Shown piece by piece: positions 1,315-14,207 of a stretch of DNA of 26,064 nt. Under the pieces are notes generated by a model, which saw nothing but the letters and a program-made list of their open reading frames with translations, was not told the DNA's origin and ran no database searches. The stretch spans positions 1-26,064 of IMG/VR virus record IMGVR_UViG_3300036832_000467. One strand, given 5' to 3'. Numbering within the stretch: the stretch's first letter is position 1; the number at the start of each line of letters is the position of its first letter. Source of the DNA: a virus. The position numbers and the translations under genes were made by a program.

Positions 1315-3450
1315 ATGTCTATACCTAACGATGTCTACCGCTTTCTGCAAGCGGTTTATCCGGACTACAAACTCTTCGCTATTTTCGCCAATGCCGCCAA
1401 AGATCCCCGCACCCGGGTGCTTGAAGATCTGAGCGACCTCAAGGATTGCTACCTGTCGATCGGGCGGTTCGGACTGCTAGCTAGCTCCAATCTGCGGAAA
1501 GCTGTTATCAGCGTGCAGGCGCTGGTTATCGATGATGTCGGAACCAAAGGGCCCGAAGCCGACAAAGTCCTGCTATTCCTCGGCACTCCTACCGCGATCG
1601 TCCGGACATCGGCAGGTAATCACCAATGGTGGTACCGGCTGACAACGCCGGTTCCAGCAGAGCAGTGGGACAGGTTCTTTGCCGGAGTGGAGCAGCTATT
1701 GGGGGTGAAGCTGGAAGGCTCGGGGCGTCAGCACCTGTTCCGGTTGCCGATGGGGGTCAACACCAAGCCTGCGCGCAAGCGTGATCCAGTTGAGCTGATC
1801 AAGCTTAACGAGGACGCAGCGCTTGATCCTGCAACAATACCCCCAGCAGCAATACCGGCACGAGCTACAGCCTCTGGGAAGTCTGTCGGGGAAAAGGCTC
1901 TGGAAGAGCTGCTTGCACTTATCCCCAACCATAAAGACATCGACAGGAAGCAATGGGTAGATATCGGGCACTACGCCAAAGGGCTTTGCCCGGAAGGCTG
2001 TGAGCCGTTTGTTGAGTGGACGCTGACATGGGACGGGGCGCCAGAAGATCTGGATACATTCACGCGGGAATACGTGGAAGAGAAGTGGGACAGCTTTGGG
2101 AAAGACGGGCTGTTATCCCGGGGCGGCATGCTGAGAGCTATGGCGGAACGGATCAATCCAGTGGGGTTCAAGGCATGGGACGCGCGGTGGGTGTTCGATG
2201 ATGGCGTGGAGGTTCCAGACGTACCGCCGGGAAAGGGGAGAGTGCAGTTCAAGCTAGGAGAGAAAAAGCAGATACTTTCGCTCGCGGAAAACGCGAAACG
2301 GGCGATTAGCGGGCTGGATATCAAATGCGCATACGATGAGTTCCATCACCGGATCTACCTTGAAGGAAAGGACATAACAGACCCGATCGTGCTGCTGTTG
2401 CGGGACAGGTTGACCCGCGAATACGGCAAGGAGTTCAGCATATCCACGATGTGGGAAGCCATCATATCGCTGGCGCATGAAAACAAGTTCAACCCGGTAT
2501 GCGAGATGCTGGATGCAGCGGAAACGCTATGGGATGGAGTGAAGCGGCTGGATCGGTTGGGGCCTGACTATTTCAATACACCTGATACGGCATATGCCCG
2601 CGCGGCGTTCCGCAAGACTATGTTGGCAGCAGTGCGAAGAGCGCGGCGGCCGGGATGCAAGTTCGATCAGATATTGGTGCTCGAAAGCCCGGAAGGCTGG
2701 AACAAGTCGTCGGCATGGGCGGTGCTGGCGGGGGAAGGGAACTTCTCGGATGCGAACATCCTCGGGAAGAATGCCAGGGAGGTGCAAGAAGAACTGGCGG
2801 ATATCTGGATACACGAGAACTCGGAGCTATCGGGGCTATCGAGAACAGAGGTAGAGCACGTCAAGGCGTTTGCCTCGCGTGTGAATGACAGGGCGCGGCC
2901 AGCATACGGGCGGGTGCTGATCGATCAACCGCGCCAGTCAATCGAAGTCGGAACAACCAATGCAGAAAGCTACCTGTTATCGCTTACCGGTAACCGGCGG
3001 TTCTGGACATTCGAAGTTATTCAACCGATCAACCTTGATCGGTTGAGGAATGACAGGCTGCAGTTGTGGGGTGAAGCGGCAGCAGCTGAAAGCACAGGAG
3101 AGACGCTTGTGCTTGATGAAGTGTTATGGAGTGAAGCAGCTGACGAACAGGAAAAGCGGCGTGTCATAGACCCGTGGGAAGACGAGCTGGCTAATCTCAA
3201 GGGCTACATGGCTGTAAGCGTCAGAGAGGGAAAAGAGTGTATCACGCGGGTTGCTGTCCATGAATTTCTAAGGCAGCGAGGGCAGCTGCTCACTATAGCA
3301 GCGGGCAAGCGCATAGCAGAGATCATGCGTAAGCTGGGGTGGAAGGATTGTAAATTATGGGTTGATGGGGTGTCCCTAAGAGGTTTTAACAGATTTCTGG
3401 ACATGTCAGAAGATGGTGTACAGAACGTGTCTAGGAAAAAGCTCTTTTAG
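1315..3450 (+). CDS. Bifunctional primase-like / VirE-family ATPase replication protein
   Basis: Likely phage replication initiation protein: a primase-like N-terminus joined to a VirE-type P-loop ATPase/helicase (711 aa). ATG 1315 is preferred over TTG 1261 because an AAAAGGA Shine-Dalgarno sits 11 bases upstream and because 1261 lies next to the hairpin. N-terminal features resemble archaeo-eukaryotic-type primases of the RepB_primase group: IDDVG near residue 73, a TSAGNHQWWYRL segment near 98-109, and RLPMGVNTK near 143-151. The C-terminal half has the VirE pattern: a P-loop SPEGWNKSS (458-466), WIHENSEL (498-505), KAFASR-(x)n-RPAYGR, GTTN (546-549) and GNRRFW (559-564). The P-loop is non-canonical, with Asn before the Lys. 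Together with the polymerase it forms a replication module; the repeat cluster begins inside its 3' end. Domain naming is by motif recognition only. Confidence 0.85.
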   Translation: MSIPNDVYRFLQAVYPDYKLFAIFANAAKDPRTRVLEDLSDLKDCYLSIGRFGLLASSNLRKAVISVQALVIDDVGTKGPEADKVLLFLGTPTAIVRTSAGNHQWWYRLTTPVPAEQWDRFFAGVEQLLGVKLEGSGRQHLFRLPMGVNTKPARKRDPVELIKLNEDAALDPATIPPAAIPARATASGKSVGEKALEELLALIPNHKDIDRKQWVDIGHYAKGLCPEGCEPFVEWTLTWDGAPEDLDTFTREYVEEKWDSFGKDGLLSRGGMLRAMAERINPVGFKAWDARWVFDDGVEVPDVPPGKGRVQFKLGEKKQILSLAENAKRAISGLDIKCAYDEFHHRIYLEGKDITDPIVLLLRDRLTREYGKEFSISTMWEAIISLAHENKFNPVCEMLDAAETLWDGVKRLDRLGPDYFNTPDTAYARAAFRKTMLAAVRRARRPGCKFDQILVLESPEGWNKSSAWAVLAGEGNFSDANILGKNAREVQEELADIWIHENSELSGLSRTEVEHVKAFASRVNDRARPAYGRVLIDQPRQSIEVGTTNAESYLLSLTGNRRFWTFEVIQPINLDRLRNDRLQLWGEAAAAESTGETLVLDEVLWSEAADEQEKRRVIDPWEDELANLKGYMAVSVREGKECITRVAVHEFLRQRGQLLTIAAGKRIAEIMRKLGWKDCKLWVDGVSLRGFNRFLDMSEDGVQNVSRKKLF
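3416..3434 (+). repeat. Paired 8-bp repeat, copy pair 1
   Basis: GTGTACAG (3416-3423) and GTGTCTAG (3427-3434) lie 11 bp apart, start to start, inside the last codons of the primase/ATPase gene. They match the pairs at 3468-3485 and 3572-3589. The helical-turn spacing suggests a DNA-binding site for a dimer or oligomer; the binding protein is unknown. Confidence 0.5.
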
Positions 3451-3459
3451 ATCAAAGCG

Positions 3460-3485
3460 TAAGACACCTGTACACCTCTGTACAC
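3460..3485 (-). repeat. Paired 8-bp repeat, copy pair 2 (inverted orientation)
   Basis: CTGTACAC occurs at 3468-3475 and 3478-3485, exactly 10 bp apart, as the complement of GTGTACAG. A degenerate third copy, TAAGACAC, sits at 3460-3467. The pair lies directly before the AT-rich TATACTATAG (3488-3497), which could be a -10 region, so this is a good candidate operator or origin element. Confidence 0.55.
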
Positions 3486-4147: not shown

Positions 4148-5197
4148 TTACGCTAGTACTGGAACTTTATCCTTCACCAGGGGCAGCAACAGCCCCATGG
4201 CCTTGCCTTTGAGGGCGTCGCCGCTGCCGAACTGGGCGGAGCGGAACCGGGCGGTGCTTTCACCAATCGCGCCAGACTGAACCGAGCGGTCATGGTCGCA
4301 GTACCGCGTGATTGCCTGCAAGGCCGCCCAAGGGGTGTTGGCTTCGGCGCCTTCCTTGACTGATGTCGAGTAAGCCCGCGACAGATCCGTGAACTGGTTC
4401 ATCTTGCGTCCTGATACATCCTCCTTCTTGGCATCGAACGGGATGTCAAGGCAGGCCTTGAAGAATTCCGACACCTGCTGCCCGCTCATCTCTACTGACG
4501 CCATGGCGTCGCCGATCTCCTTGAAGCGCTTGTAGCCTTGCGCCAACTGCGCCAGCTCCCTGCCGACCTTGGCTGCGTCGAATTTGGTCGAGTGCCTGGT
4601 ACGGATCACGGCGCGGGTATCAGCGTGGGCGATGCGAAGCGTATTCTGGCATACCACGCGCGTCACCGTGGCTTGGTTGATGGTGGAACCCGAGCCGTCG
4701 AAGGTGGTCGACATCAACACCCGTGCGGTATGCTTCTCGCCTGCGACGTCGAGGCCGCCATTGTACAGCGCGGTAGCCCAGATCCGCTTGCCGCCATCCA
4801 GCGAACCGGCGACGTCGAGCTTGAACCGGTCATCGACCGCGATGTAGCGCTGGAACCAATCCAGCACGTCGCGCGGCTGCACCACTTGATAGCCCTGGCC
4901 TGCGCCTTCACCGGAGACGTAGCCGAGCACGCTGCCGTTGTCCGAGCGCACCACGAACGAGCGGTCATCGACCGGCAGGAAGCGCTTGGAAGCGTCGATA
5001 TGGTCGAAGCGCGGGCCTTCCAGGGCGGCGATTGCGGGAACCTTGACCGCTTCCCAACCGAGGCCAGCAGCGGCCGCCCAGTCCTCGACTGACTGGCCTG
5101 CGACCATTTCCTGGCCCATGCGGTGCCAGACGTCGTTGCGGTTGCCGAGGAACGCGATGTTCGCGCGGTTATTGGTCATGTCTAAATTATGTGCCAT
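4148..5197 (-). CDS. DUF932 domain phage/plasmid protein
   Basis: A 349-residue protein recognised as DUF932 (phage/plasmid-like protein family), whose biochemical role is not established. Family-like segments include the N-terminal region ending WEAVKVPA, a central GYVSGEGAGQGYQVVQPRDVLDWF, a LDGGKRIWATA stretch, a TTFDGSGSTINQATVTRVVCQNTL segment, and a helical C-terminal part. ATG 5197 is preferred to an upstream in-frame start at 5254 because the -10 box lies at 5250-5255 and a GAAAGG ribosome-binding site lies about 12 bases before 5197. The gene is transcribed against the rest of the phage from its own promoter and ends in its own terminator, so it is an independently controlled unit, perhaps early or accessory. 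The large plus-strand frame at 4538-5092 is a shadow. Confidence 0.85.
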   Translation of the reverse strand: MAHNLDMTNNRANIAFLGNRNDVWHRMGQEMVAGQSVEDWAAAAGLGWEAVKVPAIAALEGPRFDHIDASKRFLPVDDRSFVVRSDNGSVLGYVSGEGAGQGYQVVQPRDVLDWFQRYIAVDDRFKLDVAGSLDGGKRIWATALYNGGLDVAGEKHTARVLMSTTFDGSGSTINQATVTRVVCQNTLRIAHADTRAVIRTRHSTKFDAAKVGRELAQLAQGYKRFKEIGDAMASVEMSGQQVSEFFKACLDIPFDAKKEDVSGRKMNQFTDLSRAYSTSVKEGAEANTPWAALQAITRYCDHDRSVQSGAIGESTARFRSAQFGSGDALKGKAMGLLLPLVKDKVPVLA

Positions 5198-5249
5198 AGT
5201 AGCGTGGAACCTTTCGGGGTTGAGACGGCGTCCTTGCGCCGACCTCTGC

Positions 5250-5278
5250 AACATAGGGGTTTAATTTGACTTTGTCAA
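5250..5278 (-). promoter_or_regulatory. Sigma70 promoter of the DUF932 gene, with palindrome over the -35
   Basis: On the minus strand: TTGACA (complement of 5273-5278), a 17-bp spacer, TATGTT (complement of 5250-5255). This is a consensus -35 with a good -10. The spacer contains TTAAACCCC, shared with the promoter at 4086-4114. The palindrome TTGACTTTGTCAA (5266-5278) covers the -35 and also contains the TTG start proposed for the divergent small terminase gene. Confidence 0.7.
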
Positions 5279-6030: not shown

Positions 6031-7449
6031 GTGAAGATCGTCACCGGCTTCAAGCCGCAACCGGGCCCGCAGCATCACTTCCTGACCTGCCCGGCGGACA
6101 TCGTGGTTTACGGCGGTGCGCGCGGAGGTGGTAAGTCGTTCGCGTCACTCGGCGAGTTCTGGTGCCATGCCGAGGATTGGGGTGAGGCCGCCAGGGGCCT
6201 GATGATCCGCCGCTCGCGCGAGGATCTCAAGGACACCATTGACATGGCCAGGACCATGTACGGTGGTGCTGCCGAATGGCGCGACAAGGACAAGCAATTC
6301 CGCTTCGCCAACGGCGGCCTGCTGCACATGGCCTACCTCGAGAGCGATGCCGACGCCATGAACTACCAGGGCTGGAGCCTCACCCGCGTCTATGTCGAGG
6401 AGCTGACCCAGTACGCTTCAAGCGCCGGGATCTTCAAGTTGTTTGCCACTCTTCGCACAACTTCGGGCGCACGCTGCCAGTTCCGCGCGACTTGCAATCC
6501 AGGAGGACCAGGACATCATTGGGTAAAGGCCTGGGTGATCGACAACGGTGCTTATAATCCCGTCAAGGATCACGAGACCGGTCTGATACGGATTTTCATT
6601 CCGGCTAAAATCGATGACAATCCTGCCCTGCTCAACAATGATCCGAACTATATCAACCGGCTGCGCGCTGCCGGTTCCCCCGCTCTGGTCCGCGCTTGGC
6701 TCGACGGCGACTGGAGCATCATCGAGGGCGCGTTCTTCCCCGAATTCGAGCTTGCTCGGCATGTCATTGCTCCCTTCCCTATCCCTGCACACTGGACCCG
6801 CTTCCGCTCGATGGACTGGGGCTCGGCTTCCCCCTTCAGCATCGGCTGGTGGGCGGTGGTGCAGGATGACATGCTTCATGCGGGGAAACTACTTCCGCGC
6901 GGCGCTATCATTCGGTACCGCGAATGGTATGGTGCCGAGAAGCACGACAATCAGGGCTTAAGACTGCCTGCCGAGACTGTCGCCCGGGGCATCGTGCAGC
7001 GTGAGACCGATGAAAAAGGTCGTAGAGAGCCGATCGCCTACGGCGTGCTGGACCCTGCCGCCTTCGCAGTCGTGTCAGGTCCGTCAATTGGTGAGACGCT
7101 GGCACGTGCTGGCTGTTTCTTCCGGCGTGCCGATAACTCGCGTGTTTCTACGCCGAAAAGGATGGGTGGTTGGGATCAGGTCAGATGGCGGTTACGGGGC
7201 ACAGCAGACGGCCACCCATTGATGTATTTCTTTGACACTTGTCTCGCTGCCATTCGCACCATCCCGATGATGCAGCACGATGCAAACCGCCCCGAAGACG
7301 TGGACACCGAGAGCGAAGATCACGCACCCGATGATGTGCGGTACGCCTGCATGAGCCGTCCATTCGGTAACCGGCTTGAACCCGACGAAGACCGTAACCC
7401 CCTCCTCGTGAAAAATGCCTTTCGCTTCTCGGAACTTGGTATAGATTGA
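6031..7449 (+). CDS. Terminase large subunit
   Basis: ATPase and nuclease of the DNA-packaging motor (472 aa). The ATPase half has Walker A GGARGGGKS (residues 28-36), Walker B VYVEEL (120-125), and a coupling-type segment RATCNPGGPGHHW (152-164). The RNase H-like nuclease half has the expected acidic positions: MDWG (Asp262), VLDPAAF (Asp341) and HAPDDVRYA (Asp434/435). GTG 6031 is chosen because GAAAGG at 6017-6022 is 8 bases upstream; the ATG at 6026 leads to an immediate stop. Length and motif order fit a complete protein. It sits between the small terminase and the portal, the standard packaging order. Confidence 0.95.
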   Translation: MKIVTGFKPQPGPQHHFLTCPADIVVYGGARGGGKSFASLGEFWCHAEDWGEAARGLMIRRSREDLKDTIDMARTMYGGAAEWRDKDKQFRFANGGLLHMAYLESDADAMNYQGWSLTRVYVEELTQYASSAGIFKLFATLRTTSGARCQFRATCNPGGPGHHWVKAWVIDNGAYNPVKDHETGLIRIFIPAKIDDNPALLNNDPNYINRLRAAGSPALVRAWLDGDWSIIEGAFFPEFELARHVIAPFPIPAHWTRFRSMDWGSASPFSIGWWAVVQDDMLHAGKLLPRGAIIRYREWYGAEKHDNQGLRLPAETVARGIVQRETDEKGRREPIAYGVLDPAAFAVVSGPSIGETLARAGCFFRRADNSRVSTPKRMGGWDQVRWRLRGTADGHPLMYFFDTCLAAIRTIPMMQHDANRPEDVDTESEDHAPDDVRYACMSRPFGNRLEPDEDRNPLLVKNAFRFSELGID

Positions 7450-7485
7450 CCCCCGTCCCCGCTCCCCGCGTGGGAACGATGGACT

Positions 7486-9915
7486 ATGCCGTCAACGACC
7501 TATGGCGTGCCGGAACAACGCCCTGCGGGCGCCGATGCTGTTTCGCCCGAAGCCGACCGCCCTGACGCCCCTCAAGCCGATGTCACTTCGACCGAAGACA
7601 TCGATACCACTTGGTGGGAGCGCACCCTCTCCGACGCCGAGCGGGCCGAGAAGGACTGGCGCGCCAGAGGCCGCGACATCGTCCAGATCTACCGGGGCGA
7701 CATCCCGATCACCCGGCCCCGTGCCGGAAAGTACACTTCCCAGAGCGCCTACTCCACCCGCCAGGATACCGCCAGCGCTTTCAATATTTTATACGCGAAT
7801 ACGGAAGTCATGCTCCCGGCGGCTTACGCCAAGCCTCCCGATCCCGTAGTCCGCTCCCGTTTCATCAAGAAGACCTCTCAGCCGATCGCCCCTCCTCCCC
7901 CGATGCCCCCTCCGGGCATCGCTCCCCCAGGTCTCGGGCCGCCCGGCGCGGCTGGCCCGCCGCCCCCGGGGGTGCCGATGCCGCCGAGCGGACCTCCGGG
8001 GCCTCCTGGCGGACCCCAGGGGGCTCCGGGGCCTCCGCCTCCTCCACCCCCACCGCCCCCTCAAAACGCACCAGCGGGGCTCCCAGGGCCTCCTGCAGGC
8101 ATTCCTCCGGCGGCGGGCGCTACTTCCCTCCCGCCGCCCGGGGGGATGGAGGGCCCGCCGCCAAATATGCCCCCAACCCCCGGCGGCGGGCCGCCTTCAC
8201 CCTCGCCTGGAGGATCGCTCCCCGCACCACCCGCCCCGGGCGTGCCGGAGCAATCCGATATCGAAACCGCTGCGGCGGTGATGGAAAAAGCCCTGGAGAT
8301 CGTCGTCGCCGACGAGGCCTCCAACGAGGCCGTCAAGTGCGCGGTCAAGGACATGCTGCTGCCGGGCCGGGGGGTGTGCCGGGTGCGCTGGAAGCCCGTC
8401 ATCAAGCAGATCCCGGTCGAGGACCCGGTGATGGGCGGTGACCTGATGCATCCGGTCACGGGGGAGCCGCAAGTCAAAGAGACCAAGGTGTGGGAAACCG
8501 TCGATGACGAATATGTTTATTGGGAGGATATTCTGGTTGATCCTGTACGTCAGCATTCTGATGTCAGCTGGATTGCTTTTCGCCATCTGTTCGATCAGCA
8601 GTCGCTGTTACAGGAGTTTTCGGACAGTCCTCAGCTCAAGCAGCTTCAATCCCAGAACAAGCTCTCTGACCTCTTTAAGTGGACCGAGGAGAGTGCCGCC
8701 AAGTCCCCGGTCGGCGGCGGCTCAGCTCCCAAGACCGCTTCGCGGCTGGATGCCGTGATCAAGAAGGCCATGGTCTGGGAAGTCTGGAACCGAAGCACCA
8801 AGGAGATTATCTGGCTGATCCGCGAGAGCGGCGGCATTGCCTTGCGGGTCGACCCTGACAGCCTGGGCCTCGAAGGCTTCTATCCCATTCCCAAGCCAAT
8901 CTACGCCATCGTCAGTACCGACACCATGATCCCGAGGGCGTTCTATGACATCTACGCCTCGCTTGCGGCCGACCTCGATGATACTTCGCGACGGATTTCA
9001 GACCTCACTGCCAAGATCAAGGTCAGGGGTGGCTACAACGCCGCCAACAAGGACATCGCCTCCCTCCTCACCGCCGACGACGGCAAGATGCTGCCTGTGG
9101 ACGGCGTCGATCTTATGTCCGGCGGATTGCAGAACCACATTTGGCTCGTGCCCCTACTGGAGTGGGTCAACGCCCTCAAAGAACTCTACGCCAGCCGCGA
9201 TCAGCAGAAGAACGCGATCTACGAGATCATAGGGATTGCCGACATCGTCAGAGGCGCCACCAACCCTTACGAGACCGCGACCGCCCAAAGGATCAAGGGC
9301 ACGATGGGCACCGGCAGGATGCAGGGCGTCAAGCAGTCGGTCGCCAACTTCGTCCGCGATCTGATGAGACTGAAAGCGGATATCATCGCCAAGAATTTCG
9401 ATGCCGACACCCTCACCAAGATGACCGGCGAGGAAGTCACGCCGATGATCATGGCGATCCTGCGCAGCGATTTCATGCGGGTCTGCAGCATCGATATCGA
9501 GACCGACAGCACCGTTGAATTCGACGAGACCACCGAAAAAGAGTCCAACGCTCAGACCATGCAGGTGATCGGCACTACCCTGCAGGCCGCCCAGGGCCTG
9601 CTGGCAAGCGGCCTGCTGCCGCCGCCGATGATCATTCAACTGACGCTAGAAATGATCAAGATGATGCTGCATCCGGTCCGGCATTCTCGCGGAGTTGTTG
9701 ACCTCATCAACGGCTACCAAGAGGTGCTGATGAATTTCATGAAGCAGGACCCGCTCGGCGTCAGCATGCGTCCGCCACCTCCACCCCCAGGAGCCCCGCC
9801 GCCAGGAGGCGCTAATGGCAAAGGCCCCCCGAAACCTCAAGCTGGGTCACCGCAAGGTCCCCCGCACGTCGGCCCCCCGGGCCAGGGCCCGCAAGTCGTC
9901 CCCCGTCCGCAGTAA
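7486..9915 (+). CDS. Portal protein with large proline-rich insertion
   Basis: Portal vertex protein (809 aa), called from position after the large terminase, size, and segments typical of podovirus-type portals: an N-terminal DWRARGRDIVQIYRGD, ASAFNILYANTEVMLPAAYAKPPDP (95-120), then VMEKALEIVV (265-274), GRGVCRVRW and a helical C-terminal half. ATG 7486 has GGGAA 9 bases upstream. Very unusual: residues 133-254 are about half proline (59 of 122 by count), with collagen-like GPP units and ten consecutive prolines at 183-192, between two stretches that would normally be contiguous. The C-terminus (about 765-809) is also Pro/Gly-rich. The insertion stays in frame and the flanking conserved parts look intact, so the gene appears functional. 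Confidence 0.85.
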   Translation: MPSTTYGVPEQRPAGADAVSPEADRPDAPQADVTSTEDIDTTWWERTLSDAERAEKDWRARGRDIVQIYRGDIPITRPRAGKYTSQSAYSTRQDTASAFNILYANTEVMLPAAYAKPPDPVVRSRFIKKTSQPIAPPPPMPPPGIAPPGLGPPGAAGPPPPGVPMPPSGPPGPPGGPQGAPGPPPPPPPPPPQNAPAGLPGPPAGIPPAAGATSLPPPGGMEGPPPNMPPTPGGGPPSPSPGGSLPAPPAPGVPEQSDIETAAAVMEKALEIVVADEASNEAVKCAVKDMLLPGRGVCRVRWKPVIKQIPVEDPVMGGDLMHPVTGEPQVKETKVWETVDDEYVYWEDILVDPVRQHSDVSWIAFRHLFDQQSLLQEFSDSPQLKQLQSQNKLSDLFKWTEESAAKSPVGGGSAPKTASRLDAVIKKAMVWEVWNRSTKEIIWLIRESGGIALRVDPDSLGLEGFYPIPKPIYAIVSTDTMIPRAFYDIYASLAADLDDTSRRISDLTAKIKVRGGYNAANKDIASLLTADDGKMLPVDGVDLMSGGLQNHIWLVPLLEWVNALKELYASRDQQKNAIYEIIGIADIVRGATNPYETATAQRIKGTMGTGRMQGVKQSVANFVRDLMRLKADIIAKNFDADTLTKMTGEEVTPMIMAILRSDFMRVCSIDIETDSTVEFDETTEKESNAQTMQVIGTTLQAAQGLLASGLLPPPMIIQLTLEMIKMMLHPVRHSRGVVDLINGYQEVLMNFMKQDPLGVSMRPPPPPPGAPPPGGANGKGPPKPQAGSPQGPPHVGPPGQGPQVVPRPQ
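7882..8247 (+). repeat. Collagen-like proline/glycine low-complexity tract inside the portal gene
   Basis: Low-complexity GC-rich DNA encoding residues 133-254 of the portal. It uses varied proline codons (CCT, CCG, CCA, CCC) rather than a pure simple repeat, so it is not a fresh slippage product. The opposite-strand and other-frame reading frames here are composition artefacts. Confidence 0.8.
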
Positions 9916-9931
9916 CAGAGGAAACAAACCC

Positions 9932-10300
9932 ATGGCTGAGAAGCACGATAATATAACCCAGGACCCGAAGCACCCCGCCAATGTCACTCCGGCCCGGGAG
10001 CACAAGACCCTTGAGCCGGGCGTGGTCCCGACCGGGGCCTTCACCAGTGAAAACATGCGTACCACCCAGGAAGTGGATGCTGCTGGCAAGAGCCTCGGCG
10101 TCGGCCCGGTCTCGCCCGCCGAACCGTTCGCCGCCGAGCCTGCCGAAACCGTCGAAGAACTGGGGATCGGCCCGCGCACGCCGTACCCGACCGGAAACCC
10201 GCCCCCGCTGTACTCGGAGGCCATTCTGCAGCAGTCGATGCGGGACACCAACGTCCATCACGACAAGCACACCACCCCAACCACGAGGAAAAACCCATGA
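9932..10300 (+). CDS. Hypothetical head-region protein, 122 aa
   Basis: Unrecognised small protein between portal and head genes. ATG 9932 is preferred over the in-frame upstream ATG at 9815 because AGAGGAAA (9917-9924) is well placed and the upstream extension would overlap the end of the portal gene. The protein is hydrophilic, rich in Pro, Glu and Thr, without membrane segments. Recognisable segments are LEPGVVPTGAFTSENMRT and ELGIGPRTPYPTGNPPP. The stop overlaps the next start as ATGA, suggesting coupled translation. A minor virion or assembly role is inferred only from position. Confidence 0.75.
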   Translation: MAEKHDNITQDPKHPANVTPAREHKTLEPGVVPTGAFTSENMRTTQEVDAAGKSLGVGPVSPAEPFAAEPAETVEELGIGPRTPYPTGNPPPLYSEAILQQSMRDTNVHHDKHTTPTTRKNP

Positions 10301-10896
10301 CCTGGGGCTGGGCTCTGGTTCGGCCGGTGCCGATCACCGCAGCGATGCTGGCGCCTGCGAACCCGCGCGTGGACTACCCGCGCTACTCAACCCCTGCCGA
10401 CTGGAACATGGGCACCACCGGCAACGACATCGACGGCTGCAAGGCTACCGTTGCGGCGGTCGGCTCCGAGAGCACGCTTGCGACCGGGTATCCAGCGGCG
10501 CTTACCCAGACTGCCCGCAACGCTCTCAAGGTACCAGCGCTGGCGGCTCCGAGCGATATTGGTCAGGACTATGGCGCCTATGACAATTTGACTGGGCGTG
10601 CTGGCTTCATCGGGCCGCTCGATCCCTACCCTGACGCAACTTCCCCGACCAAGCTGAACTCAGTCGTCCCCGGCACCGGGACCACGGCGGGCGGCACCAC
10701 CGTCACGCTCGCGGGTGTCGGCTTCACCGGGGCTACCGCCGTCACCTTCGGCGGCACCGCAGGGACCTCGATCGTGGTCGGCACGCCCAACAGCCTGACC
10801 GTCGTCACTCCAGCCAAGACCGCAGGCAGCTACGATGTGCTCGTGACCTCGCCGAGAGGCACCAGTCAGGCGGGCGTCAAGTACACCTACGTATAG
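10297..10896 (+). CDS. Virion protein with C-terminal Ig-like (IPT/TIG-type) domain
   Basis: A 199-residue protein. Residues about 120-199 carry an Ig-like fold pattern of the IPT/TIG type: VVPGTGTTAGGTTVTLAGVG, FTGATAVTFGG, TVVTPAKTAGSYDVLVTS and a final VKYTYV strand. Such domains are common on phage heads and tails as weak carbohydrate-binding or adhesive decorations. The N-terminal part (residues 1-115) is unrecognised and has the look of a structural protein. The start overlaps the previous stop (ATGA at 10297). Position before scaffold and capsid genes suggests a head decoration, but this is inference. Confidence 0.75.
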   Translation: MTWGWALVRPVPITAAMLAPANPRVDYPRYSTPADWNMGTTGNDIDGCKATVAAVGSESTLATGYPAALTQTARNALKVPALAAPSDIGQDYGAYDNLTGRAGFIGPLDPYPDATSPTKLNSVVPGTGTTAGGTTVTLAGVGFTGATAVTFGGTAGTSIVVGTPNSLTVVTPAKTAGSYDVLVTSPRGTSQAGVKYTYV

Positions 10897-10907
10897 GAAA
10901 GCGCGAG

Positions 10908-11177
10908 ATGCCCTCATCAGGCTTCAGACCCAATAATCAGATGCACCTTCCGGGCCTGGGAGTGCCGGTTGATCCCTGGACCGGCTTCCAGCTCGATCCG
11001 ATGGTGGTCGCCCGCATGGCCAAGCTCAGGGAGGCCGAGCGGGCCTTCCGCGAGGTGCTGCACGAACTCGACGGCTCCTCGGTCGGCAGCCGCCCCGGCG
11101 ACCGCCGTATGAATAACGCCTTCACCCGGATTGAAGAGGCCACGATGTGGGCCTCGGCTGCAATCATGGACCTCTGA
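10908..11177 (+). CDS. Small protein resembling the Acb2/Tad1 hairpin family (possible anti-CBASS)
   Basis: An 89-residue protein with AGGAAA 7 bases before ATG 10908. After a Pro/Gly N-terminus, residues 38-51 form a charged helix (LREAERAFREVLHE), then a short linker with RPGDRR, then a second helix NNAFTRIEEATMWASAAI ending the protein. The two-helix hairpin and the pattern T-x-I/L-E-E-A-x-M-W-A-x-A-A-I match my memory of the Acb2/Tad1 hairpin domain. Acb2 proteins sequester cyclic nucleotides and so block CBASS defence. No alignment was run, and ligand-binding residues cannot be assigned by eye. The gene sits inside the head operon between the Ig-like protein and another small protein, so a structural or assembly role is the main alternative. 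Confidence 0.55.
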   Translation: MPSSGFRPNNQMHLPGLGVPVDPWTGFQLDPMVVARMAKLREAERAFREVLHELDGSSVGSRPGDRRMNNAFTRIEEATMWASAAIMDL

Positions 11178-11179
11178 CC

Positions 11180-11455
11180 GTGCCAATCTACGTCTACTAC
11201 CAGGGGCGGTTGATCGAAAAGCGCTACAAACCGGCTGAATACCGGGCGCAATCCGATCTCCCCGCCCCTGCGCTCCACAATTTCGAAGCCTTCGCCTCGC
11301 CGATCGATGACCGACCGATCCGCTCTCCCCGCGAGCGGGATCGAGACCTTCGCAACAGCGGCAGTTACGACCCCCGGGATACTCCCGCAGCCTGGAAGAG
11401 AGCCAGAGATGTCAGATACCAGCAACGGCGCAGGCTCGCCGCCCCCGAGCCTTAG
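11180..11455 (+). CDS. Small phage head-region protein, 91 aa
   Basis: Starts at GTG 11180, two bases after the previous stop, suggesting translational coupling; an upstream ATG at 11147 would overlap the preceding gene. The N-terminus MPIYVYYQGRLIEKRYKP and the middle SPIDDRPIRSPRERDRDLR resemble a common small protein encoded before capsid genes in many phages of proteobacteria, with no assigned function. The C-terminus is strongly basic (RARDVRYQQRRRL). Its last 47 bases overlap the scaffold gene in another frame. Confidence 0.7.
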   Translation: MPIYVYYQGRLIEKRYKPAEYRAQSDLPAPALHNFEAFASPIDDRPIRSPRERDRDLRNSGSYDPRDTPAAWKRARDVRYQQRRRLAAPEP

Positions 11456-12608
11456 AGATATCGCAGAACAAGCCTACGACGACCTTGAAGCGGGCACTGA
11501 GGCTCCCGTCGAGGAGGCCGCGCCTGCGGAGGAGCCTGCGGAAAGTCCCGATGAGGGGGTTGCATCGGATGAAAGACCGCGCGATAAACAAGGCCGCTGG
11601 GTTGCGAAATCGGCCCAGCCGGGTGAAGCAATCGAGCCCCCCAAAGCCGATCCAGCCCCGAAGCCATCAGATACCGGGACCAAAGCTGCCGAACCTGATC
11701 CAGCCGCGCAAGCGAGGAGCAATCAGGCCCCCGAGCATTGGAGCGCAGACGACAAGGCGACCTTCGCCAAGCTGCCCCAGGAAGGACAGGCCTTCCTCCT
11801 CCGGCGGCACGGCGAGATGGAAGCTGAGTTCACGCGCCGTGCCCAGGCGAGTGCGGGAGCAGTCCAGTTCACCCAAAGCCTCGCGCCAGTGTTCACCGAC
11901 CGGCGAATTCAAACCTCGCTGCAGCAGATGGGTCTCAACCCGACGCAAGCCGTGCAGGAATGGGCAGGCTTCCACGTCCGGGCGATGTCCCCGAACCTAC
12001 AAGACAGGTTCAATGTGCTGGTGGATCTGACCGAGCGGATGGGGCTCGACCCAGCACGCATCTTTGCCGCCCTCAATAAATCGCCGCTGCCGGAGGGCCT
12101 TTCCGAGGCCGAATTGAAAGATCCGGCGGTCAAATTCTTCGCCGAAAAACTCGGGCAGACCACCAATGAACTGAACGCTCTCAAGAATGATGTCCAGAGC
12201 CGCTGGCATGCTGCAGAGCAGGCCAAGGCGCGAGAAGGTGAGCAGTTTGCAAGGCAGAACATCGATCATTGGGCGGACGAAGTTGGTCAGGACGGCAAGC
12301 CGCTCCGGCCTCACTTCAACGCCGTGCTGCCGGTCATCCTCGATCTGTTCAGGGCCAATCCGCAGCGCAATCTCGCGGAAGCCTATGAGCAGGCCTGCTG
12401 GGCTCATCCGGATGTCAGGAAACAGCTGCTCGCCGCCGAGCAAATGCGGCTGCAGTCGCGCCATGACGTCGAGAAGGCCAAGGTTGCGCAACGCGGCAAC
12501 ACCAGGGGCCTCACCTCCCCTGCGGTCAAGCCGCCGGGCAATTCCGGTACTCACAAGGGATCGTTACGGGACACTATCGAGCAGGCTGCCGAGGAGATCG
12601 GGTATTGA
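11409..12608 (+). CDS. Scaffolding (head assembly) protein
   Basis: Capsid scaffold candidate (399 aa), immediately upstream of the major capsid gene. The start ATG 11409 is chosen over ATG 11307 because GAGAG precedes it and the N-terminus MSDTSNGAGSPPPSLRDIAE looks natural. Residues about 20-105 are acidic, Glu/Ala/Pro-rich and probably disordered; EHWSADDKATFAKLPQEGQAF (about 114-134) is a segment often seen in this protein class; the rest is helical and charged. The C-terminal SLRDTIEQAAEEIGY mirrors the N-terminal SLRDIAEQAYDDLE, an internal echo. No separate head protease gene is visible. Function is inferred from composition and position. Confidence 0.75.
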   Translation: MSDTSNGAGSPPPSLRDIAEQAYDDLEAGTEAPVEEAAPAEEPAESPDEGVASDERPRDKQGRWVAKSAQPGEAIEPPKADPAPKPSDTGTKAAEPDPAAQARSNQAPEHWSADDKATFAKLPQEGQAFLLRRHGEMEAEFTRRAQASAGAVQFTQSLAPVFTDRRIQTSLQQMGLNPTQAVQEWAGFHVRAMSPNLQDRFNVLVDLTERMGLDPARIFAALNKSPLPEGLSEAELKDPAVKFFAEKLGQTTNELNALKNDVQSRWHAAEQAKAREGEQFARQNIDHWADEVGQDGKPLRPHFNAVLPVILDLFRANPQRNLAEAYEQACWAHPDVRKQLLAAEQMRLQSRHDVEKAKVAQRGNTRGLTSPAVKPPGNSGTHKGSLRDTIEQAAEEIGY

Positions 12609-12626
12609 CCCCCATAGGAGCAGGTC

Positions 12627-13580
12627 ATGCCGTCACCAACGGTTAATAACCTAGTTGCGACTACTATCCAGAACTACCACAAGCAGTTCGCCGACAACGT
12701 CAGCAATTCCAACGCCGTCACCGCATTGCTGCGGGAAGGCAACCGCGTCCGCGTCATCGAAGGCGGCCGTGCTATCGCCTGCCCGCTGACCTACGCCGAG
12801 GAAACTTTTGCTTGGTACATCGGCAGCGATCCGCTCAACCGGGCTACCAAGGAAACCATCTCGGAAGCCGAATACGCACCTGCAAACGCGGTTGCCTCGG
12901 TAACCCTTACCGGTCCTGATTTGGCGATGAACCGCTCGCGTGAGCGCATCCTCAATTTGCTCGAAGGCAAATTGGATAACGCGGAAGCGACCATGAAAAA
13001 CAACATTACCAAAGCCATCTACGGCGACGGTACTGTTGCCAAGAGCTTCGCGGGATTGAAGGCTTTCATCACCAACGACGGCAGCGGCATCGTAGGAGCG
13101 ATCGACGCTACCACCTGGGTGTTCTGGAAGAACCAGTTCCAGCAAGTGGTGCGAGCGACAGGCCTGCAGTATCCGGCCCTCGTTGCCGGTATGGCTGCAT
13201 TGTGGATGAAGCTGATCCGTGGCGCCGAGAAACCTGATCTGATCGTCGCCGACGGTGAAATCTACTCAACCTACGAGAGCGGGCTGCAGATGAACCAAAG
13301 GTACGCCGACGCCCGGCTCGGCGCGCTCGGGTTCGAGACCTTGAAGTACAAGTCTGCCCCACTTGTGTTCGACGGCGTCGCCACCGGCCTTACTGGCGCC
13401 TACTATCTCAATACAAAATACCTGAAATTCGAGATCTACTCCGGCCGGAACTTCGAGACCCTCGATCTTCCTGACCAGAGCCCCGATTTGGACGCCGTCA
13501 CCCGGCACCTTGCCTTCATGGGGGCCTTGACGCTGTCCAACCGTTCGATGCAGGGAAGGTTGTTCGCAACCGGTACCTGA
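12627..13580 (+). CDS. Major capsid protein
   Basis: Coat protein, 317 aa, expected HK97-type fold. The start ATG 12627 has AGGAG 6 bases upstream, one of the best ribosome-binding sites in the window, as expected for the most abundant virion protein. Typical features: an N-terminal helix NLVATTIQNYHKQFADN, GGRAIACPLTYAEETFAWYIG, a long helix (NLLEGKLDNAEATMKNNITKA) and a C-terminal GALTLSNRSMQGRL. It follows the scaffold gene and is followed directly by a strong terminator-like hairpin. Assignment is by position and overall pattern; no structure comparison was possible. Confidence 0.85.
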   Translation: MPSPTVNNLVATTIQNYHKQFADNVSNSNAVTALLREGNRVRVIEGGRAIACPLTYAEETFAWYIGSDPLNRATKETISEAEYAPANAVASVTLTGPDLAMNRSRERILNLLEGKLDNAEATMKNNITKAIYGDGTVAKSFAGLKAFITNDGSGIVGAIDATTWVFWKNQFQQVVRATGLQYPALVAGMAALWMKLIRGAEKPDLIVADGEIYSTYESGLQMNQRYADARLGALGFETLKYKSAPLVFDGVATGLTGAYYLNTKYLKFEIYSGRNFETLDLPDQSPDLDAVTRHLAFMGALTLSNRSMQGRLFATGT

Positions 13581-13587
13581 GCATCGG

Positions 13588-13628
13588 AACCGGCAGGCGG
13601 CTTGCGGGGAGCGACGCCTGCCGGTTTT
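13588..13628 (+). terminator. Terminator-like hairpin after the major capsid gene
   Basis: A perfect 12-bp stem (13588-13599 with 13615-13626), 15-nt loop, followed by TTTT. It begins 7 bases after the capsid stop. The loop carries GGGGAGCG (13606-13613), exactly complementary to CGCTCCCC (13632-13639) just before the next gene's ribosome-binding site, so an alternative stem or pseudoknot could form. It probably reduces read-through so that capsid mRNA exceeds tail mRNA. Confidence 0.85.
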
Positions 13629-13652
13629 CCCCGCTCCCCCCAAGGAGTGGTT

Positions 13653-14207
13653 ATGAGCAATGACGCCCCGACACTCGTAAGGTTCTACAGCGGCTGGGAG
13701 CGGGACGGCAACGGCCCTGATGGATTACCTGTTTTCAAGCAAACCGTGCGGGTGCGGCTCGACCGGCCGCCTTATCTCGCGGTCGAGCGGGTGGCGGAAG
13801 AGGATGACATTCGCGATCATCCCGAGCCGTATGCCCTGTACCAGCGCACCGAGGGCTCGCGGATCGAGGTGCACGGTTATCCGCTAGCGCTATGGCCCGC
13901 GTGCCTGCCGCACATCTTCCAGATGTGCGCGCACCGCGACATTCACACCGTCGAGCAACTCGCTCAGCTGGTTTCAAAAACCCGGCGCAGTGAAGCGGTC
14001 AAGACCATGCCGCCTGACGTTCTGGAGCTAGCCGACCGGGCCAAGAAGATGATCGAGCTGCACTCGAGGCAGGGGCAGTATGAAGAGCTGGTGACCGATC
14101 TGCAGGCTCAACTGGCGGTGCTGAAGGAGCAGCTCACCGAAGCCGTCTCCACCATCGCGGCGCAGAAGACCATGATCGAAACCCTGCAGCTCAAGGCGGT
14201 TGCCTAA
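13653..14207 (+). CDS. Hypothetical head/neck protein with C-terminal coiled coil, 184 aa
   Basis: Starts at ATG 13653 with AAGGAG 5 bases upstream. The N-terminal half (FYSGWERDGNGPDGLPVFKQTVRVRLDRPPY) resembles proteins found after capsid genes in related phages. From about residue 125 the protein is a long heptad-like helix (ELADRAKKMIELHSRQGQYE and onward), a probable coiled coil. No enzyme motif is seen. Being the first gene after the capsid terminator, it starts the neck/tail part of the operon. Role unknown; head completion is inferred from position. Confidence 0.75.
   Translation: MSNDAPTLVRFYSGWERDGNGPDGLPVFKQTVRVRLDRPPYLAVERVAEEDDIRDHPEPYALYQRTEGSRIEVHGYPLALWPACLPHIFQMCAHRDIHTVEQLAQLVSKTRRSEAVKTMPPDVLELADRAKKMIELHSRQGQYEELVTDLQAQLAVLKEQLTEAVSTIAAQKTMIETLQLKAVA

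Follow-up and report, generated by a model that had tools for sequence, protein, structure and literature searches.

What is the small protein encoded between the portal and major capsid protein (MCP) genes of this phage: a component of the virion, or a counter-defense factor that happens to be made alongside virion components? The question arises because the protein resembles a helical hairpin that is common to Acb2, which is directed at CBASS signals, and Tad1, which is directed at both Thoeris and CBASS signals. The window considered here is the whole stretch of DNA that was analyzed, 26,064 nt in length.

Gene Context and Organization of the Head Operon

The gene is an open reading frame (ORF) on the + strand (10908-11177) with an ATG start, a TGA stop and an 89-aa product, and a ribosome-site-like run (AGGAAAG) lies immediately 5' of the ATG. 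Residues 73-86 of the product read TRIEEATMWASAAI. The gene had been predicted to be embedded in the head operon, and its surroundings bear this out, with the terminase and portal genes on the 5' side and the MCP gene on the 3' side:

6031-7449, + strand: terminase large subunit (TerL; Pfam Terminase_6N, PHROG 979)
7486-9915, + strand: portal protein (PHROG 12082, E 1.9e-122)
between the portal and TIG-domain genes: small ORF without assigned function
10297-10896, + strand: TIG/IPT-domain protein, the 5' operon neighbor (Pfam PF01833, E 1.5e-11)
10908-11177, + strand: type A Acb2/Tad1-hairpin gene, putative nucleotide-signal sponge (Pfam PF24729, hhalign, 31 syntenic loci)
11180-11455, + strand: conserved small gene with a GTG start, beginning VPIYVYYQGRLIEK, the 3' neighbor (from the ORF list; found in 31/31 type A loci)
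11409-12608, + strand: scaffold-like ORF directly 5' of the MCP gene (from the ORF list and synteny in kin; function assigned by position)
12627-13580, + strand: MCP (PHROG 9953, E 9.9e-74)

Only 11 nt separate the hairpin gene from its 5' neighbor and 2 nt from its 3' neighbor, and a search of the + strand from 6642 to 14000 found no promoter-like site; co-expression with the head genes is therefore likely. When the rest of the 26-kb record was searched for a second hairpin gene, none was found.

Several other features of the record deserve mention in their own right. The portal ORF (7486-9915) encodes 809 aa, with a long Pro/Gly-rich insert at approximately residues 130-250 and a Pro-rich tail, both of which are shared by kin. 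The TIG/IPT-domain protein (10297-10896) is a conserved member of the group's head operon, with about 50% identity among kin versus about 88% for the MCP, and is possibly a fast-evolving head decoration. A DUF932 gene (4148-5254, - strand, 138 bits) lies on the strand opposite to its neighbors, where the replication genes give way to the head genes.

Assignment to the Acb2/Tad1 Hairpin Superfamily

The original prediction had placed the protein in the Acb2/Tad1-hairpin family, and the profile search now supports this placement: Pfam PF24729 (Acb2/Tad1 hairpin) matched the 89-aa protein at 36.4 bits (E = 6.1e-9) against a curated cut-off of 27, with residues 35-87 aligned to profile positions 11-57 of 58. 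Short helical domains are prone to spurious matches, and the match could in principle reflect nothing more than the chance likeness of a short amphipathic hairpin; PF24729 was also found eight times in control genomes, each time under the cut-off. This explanation is nevertheless very improbable and has been largely refuted, given a score above the curated cut-off, the lack of any match for the reversed and five shuffled versions of the protein, scores above the cut-off in 22 of the 50 records searched, and the agreement of both residues and profiles with proven members of the family.

With regard to residues, the near-invariant positions of canonical members, given in PaMx33 numbering (K26, R67, A72, T74, A79, M81, W82 and A83; PaMx33 itself deviates at some of them), correspond to R41, R66, A71, T73, A78, M80, W81 and A82 in the 89-aa protein, the Lys-to-Arg replacement of K26 being the sole change. 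With regard to profiles, hhalign comparison of the gene's own branch with a canonical alignment of 10 proteins (PaMx33 Acb2, T4 Vs.4 and eight contig proteins) gave a probability of 96.3% (E 1.8e-9), versus 0.1% for the neighboring small gene used as a control. Furthermore, a profile combining this branch (type A) with the diverged type B form described below ranked T4 Vs.4 (7uq2) first among 177,635 PDB sequences, albeit with a weak E of 0.013, and a profile of canonical members reached Tad1 chains at E about 0.0009. On the strength of these sequence comparisons, membership in the Acb2/Tad1 hairpin superfamily can be regarded as firm.

Other resources were less informative. PHROGs returned only families without assigned function, and NCBIfam left the 89-aa protein unmatched, as it did proven Acb2, which likewise had no match above the cut-off. 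A tblastn search with the 89-aa protein against 50,697 phage genomes gave only a weak match to a tape-measure gene (E 0.8), which is not a relative, and the protein A fragments returned by single-sequence phmmer against the PDB represent helix-on-helix noise.

The Slot in Related Phages

A sample of kin was obtained by retrieving 80 contigs with the capsid protein, from which the 47 records with sufficient upstream sequence, including the window, were examined; tree and presence counts refer to 40 dereplicated rows. Among these rows, 17 carry type A, 13 carry type B (including L055, which fits both types poorly and was counted as type B), 9 carry no hairpin gene, and 1 (L067) carries a canonical hairpin gene. 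Type B is a diverged form in the same slot, recognizable by the motifs GVPVDYxTG, MHxAEGS and SRRMxIAATHLE; its PF24729 scores are mostly near or under the cut-off, and its homology to type A was recognized by cross-scoring. The type A rows form one clade on the MCP tree (support 100/100), and the tree requires at least 2 losses of the hairpin gene.

The conservation of the locus within this clade favors a rival explanation, namely that the product is a head protein (a minor capsid protein, a scaffold helper or a decoration) that contains, or is derived from, an Acb2-like hairpin. With the type A alignment as query, 31 loci were recovered, all of them (31/31) with the same neighbors and a constant position between the portal/TIG genes and the scaffold; the gene is present in 17/17 rows of the clade, hence in every phage sampled from it; and the branch has its own invariant N-terminal motif, together with the invariant residues H52 and G56. 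Against a head protein stand the absence of the gene from 9 of the 40 dereplicated kin despite their related MCPs, and the lack of any hairpin match near the MCP gene in the distant relatives Mx8, BUCT555, ppBjS10J-1 and ctMlz233. Moreover, in some relatives the slot is taken by a member of another hairpin subfamily or by a Tad2-like gene, and the type A gene evolves faster than the MCP gene. On balance, a head protein appears unlikely. A scan for type A branch relatives in bacterial and archaeal genomes found none.

The exchange of genes within the slot takes several forms. L067, which lies within a loss clade, carries a canonical hairpin gene (44.9 bits) in the slot, and in L073 a canonical hairpin gene stands in tandem with type A. 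Additional canonical hairpin genes are located directly 5' of the portal gene in L031 (629-856) and in L037 (2894-3121), where the gene lies between TerL and portal, and these define a second slot in the operon. Taken together with L085, 5/5 canonical hairpin genes seen in the group are thus located either between TerL and MCP or immediately 5' of the portal gene. Tad2-like genes (PF11195, about 90 bits) were found in the slot of two phages, L085 and Ruegeria phage 45A6. The latter is a distant relative (MCP identity 33%), and its Tad2-like gene lies a few small genes 5' of the MCP gene.

Three individual loci are also worth recording. In L085 (5592-6396), Tad2-like, canonical Acb2-like and type B genes follow one another with 4-nt overlaps, forming a three-sponge cassette flanked by the TIG gene on one side and, on the other, by the small gene 5' of the scaffold. 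The Tad2-like gene of Ruegeria phage 45A6 (L098, KT820175; 1787-2227; PF11195, 91 bits) is annotated as 'hypothetical protein'. In L084, an HNH endonuclease gene (3049-3480; PF13392) separates the type B hairpin gene from the scaffold; it was the sole find in a Pfam scan of the other slot genes and is possibly a mobile element near the slot.

Placement of Acb2-like Genes in Other Phages

The original prediction had also contrasted a position among structural genes with the early accessory region where a counter-defense gene might be expected. The head-operon location stands, as described above, while the contrast is less marked than suggested, given that relatives of proven Acb2 lie in the head operons of several other phages. 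Homologs are found among head genes in Vibrio phage D56 (between the portal and MCP genes), Pseudomonas phage Ps60, Shewanella phage 1/41, Leptolyngbya phage Lsp-JY19, Sinorhizobium phage Aussie and the IMG/VR contig L002, and outside the head operon in the case of T4 vs.4, PaMx33 acb2 and the homologs in Gordonia phage Anon and Paenibacillus phage Tripp; these comparison phages were chosen by hand and give no frequency. Head-operon placement of hairpin genes recurs in at least 6 other phages and is not new in itself.

Predicted Structure and the Branch-Specific N Terminus

An AlphaFold2 monomer model was built from 29 syntenic homologs (mean pLDDT 81.6). It shows two antiparallel C-terminal helices, consistent with the two-helix ending that had been proposed for this 89-residue product, and ten-residue blocks within the helices mostly have pLDDT values of 89-96. 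The N terminus is of low confidence (pLDDT 47-58 for residues 1-20). The protein can be divided as follows:

10926-10994, + strand: N-terminal segment, residues 7-29 (RPNxQM-LPGxGxPVDPxTGxxL), branch-specific and without the Acb2 Tyr
10998-11072, + strand: helix 1, residues 31-55, including R41 and the invariant H52 (AlphaFold2, alignments)
11103-11171, + strand: helix 2, residues 66-88, including R66, T73, A78, M80, W81 and A82 (AlphaFold2, alignments)

Fold comparison aligned the model with T4 Vs.4 (7uq2; Z 7.1, 66 residues aligned, rmsd 3.5) and Acb2 (8h2x; Z 6.6, 57 residues aligned, rmsd 2.5), with unrelated hairpins reaching equal Z in both cases. Such a comparison of a bare helical hairpin is not decisive, as it cannot separate Acb2 from other hairpins, and no conclusion here is drawn from it.

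The N-terminal part had been described as atypical, and the alignments agree. The motif RPNxQM-LPGxGxPVDPxTG is invariant or nearly so in the 17 type A proteins, and a segment of about 30 residues bearing GVPVDPxTG occupies the place of the Acb2 N-terminal Tyr region. The Tyr column itself (PaMx33 Y11, T4 Y8) is Gly in the window protein and in most type A/B members. We take Y11, K26 and R67 of PaMx33 Acb2 to be ligand-contacting residues, which are compared here by position and conservation only; K26 corresponds to R41 in helix 1 and R67 to R66 in helix 2. T73 of the 89-aa protein is equivalent to PaMx33 T74 and T4 T68, and the Thr is kept. In addition, H52 and G56 are invariant in 29/29 type A/B proteins; canonical Acb2 shows no conservation at either position. 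Mutational work on T4 Acb2 has reported that Y8A is binding-deficient and that T68M lowers binding (PMC12657230). A possible alteration of ligand choice through the N-terminal part, as originally suggested, is a reasonable reading of these sequence differences.

Selection and Proposed Function

The median dN/dS of the type A gene is 0.32 (136 pairs), approximately 4.5 times the 0.07 of the MCP gene in the same phages. The ORF at 10908-11177 is a real gene under purifying selection, and it changes at a far higher rate than a core gene of the virion. Because of this difference in rate, the losses in kin and the sharing of the slot with other sponge families, a dispensable nucleotide-signal sponge fits the comparative evidence better than a part of the virion. 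Two observations count against a sponge: the Tyr is not kept, and the gene is present throughout its own clade, as expected for a virion gene. Overall, the gene probably encodes a phage nucleotide-signal sponge of the Acb2/Tad1-hairpin superfamily that is made together with the head proteins.

According to the proposed mechanism, the hairpin would probably assemble into an Acb2-like oligomer, which would sequester a nucleotide signal of host defense without cutting it, so that the suicide effector of the host would consequently stay off. Co-expression with the capsid genes might supply the sponge as capsid proteins accumulate. Phages lacking acb2 have been found to evade CBASS via capsid mutations (PMC10419184), and Thoeris ThsB1 senses a major head protein (PMC12043709); with capsid proteins implicated as triggers of defense, making a sponge together with the capsid gene may matter. 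A link between this co-expression and a capsid-triggered alarm is offered purely as a hypothesis.

As for the signal, an anti-CBASS role is only one possibility among several, since the hairpin is common to Acb2 and Tad1 and the Tyr for cyclic dinucleotides is not conserved. Given that helix 2 retains its Arg and Thr and that the Tyr of the dinucleotide site is missing, the predicted ligand is more probably a cyclic trinucleotide (cA3, for example) than a cyclic dinucleotide, unless the signal is read by the N-terminal segment. Alternatively, the sponge might be directed at an NAD-derived (Thoeris-type) or other nucleotide signal and not at CBASS, a subcase of the sponge reading and not exclusive of it. 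The hairpin shared with Tad1, to which the canonical profile extends, the missing Tyr together with the new N-terminal segment, and the Tad2-like genes in the slot of two relatives are consistent with this alternative; the retention of the Acb2-type Arg/Thr pair of helix 2 and the lack of room for the beta-sheet domain of Tad1 speak against it, as only 30 residues precede helix 1 and the model contains no strand of at least 3 residues. We consider a Thoeris-type or similar target doubtful. Returning to the nucleotide-signal sponge in general, a more elaborate scenario is put forward tentatively: the GVPVDPxTG branch may be a sponge family of its own, in which the Acb2 dinucleotide site has been lost and a different signal is bound by a newly acquired pocket at the N terminus, and the slot may act as a sponge-exchange cassette (Acb2-type, GVPVD-type and Tad2), with the sponge being made together with an alarm-triggering capsid protein.

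If the gene is indeed a sponge, it extends the phage signal sponges by a branch that had not been described before, and the natural loss of the Tyr combined with a new conserved N terminus offers a direct test of how a shared hairpin changes its ligand. In this phage group, the stretch from portal to scaffold and capsid repeatedly acquires sponge genes of different families, making it a place to seek counter-defense genes that are commonly read as hypothetical head-region proteins.

Comparison with Known Systems

The closest known systems are Acb2 of PaMx33/PaP2 (PDB 8h2j, 8h2x and 8ixz) and T4 Vs.4 (7uq2), which are likewise single-domain phage proteins of about 90 aa and share with the window protein the C-terminal helical hairpin, the K26 position (Arg here), R67, T74 and the A-x-M-W-A core. 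In contrast to them, the 89-aa protein lacks the Y11/Y8 Tyr, carries the GVPVDPxTG segment and the invariant H52 and G56, and is encoded inside the head operon, whereas PaMx33 acb2 and T4 vs.4 lie outside it. The head-operon proteins of D56, Ps60, 1/41 and Lsp-JY19 are PaMx33 Acb2-like (39-52% identity over 98-100% of Acb2), and that of Aussie resembles the canonical protein of contig L004; none of these five belongs to the GVPVD branch. Tad1 (Thoeris anti-defense 1; PDB 7uav and 8kbe) has the PF24729 hairpin domain in common with the window protein. It also possesses an N-terminal beta-sheet domain (PMC12043709), in place of which the window protein has only a short, low-confidence coil. Finally, the Tad2-like proteins (PF11195) of L085 and 45A6 belong to a known family of signal sponges and share the same slot, although their family and fold are unrelated to the hairpin.
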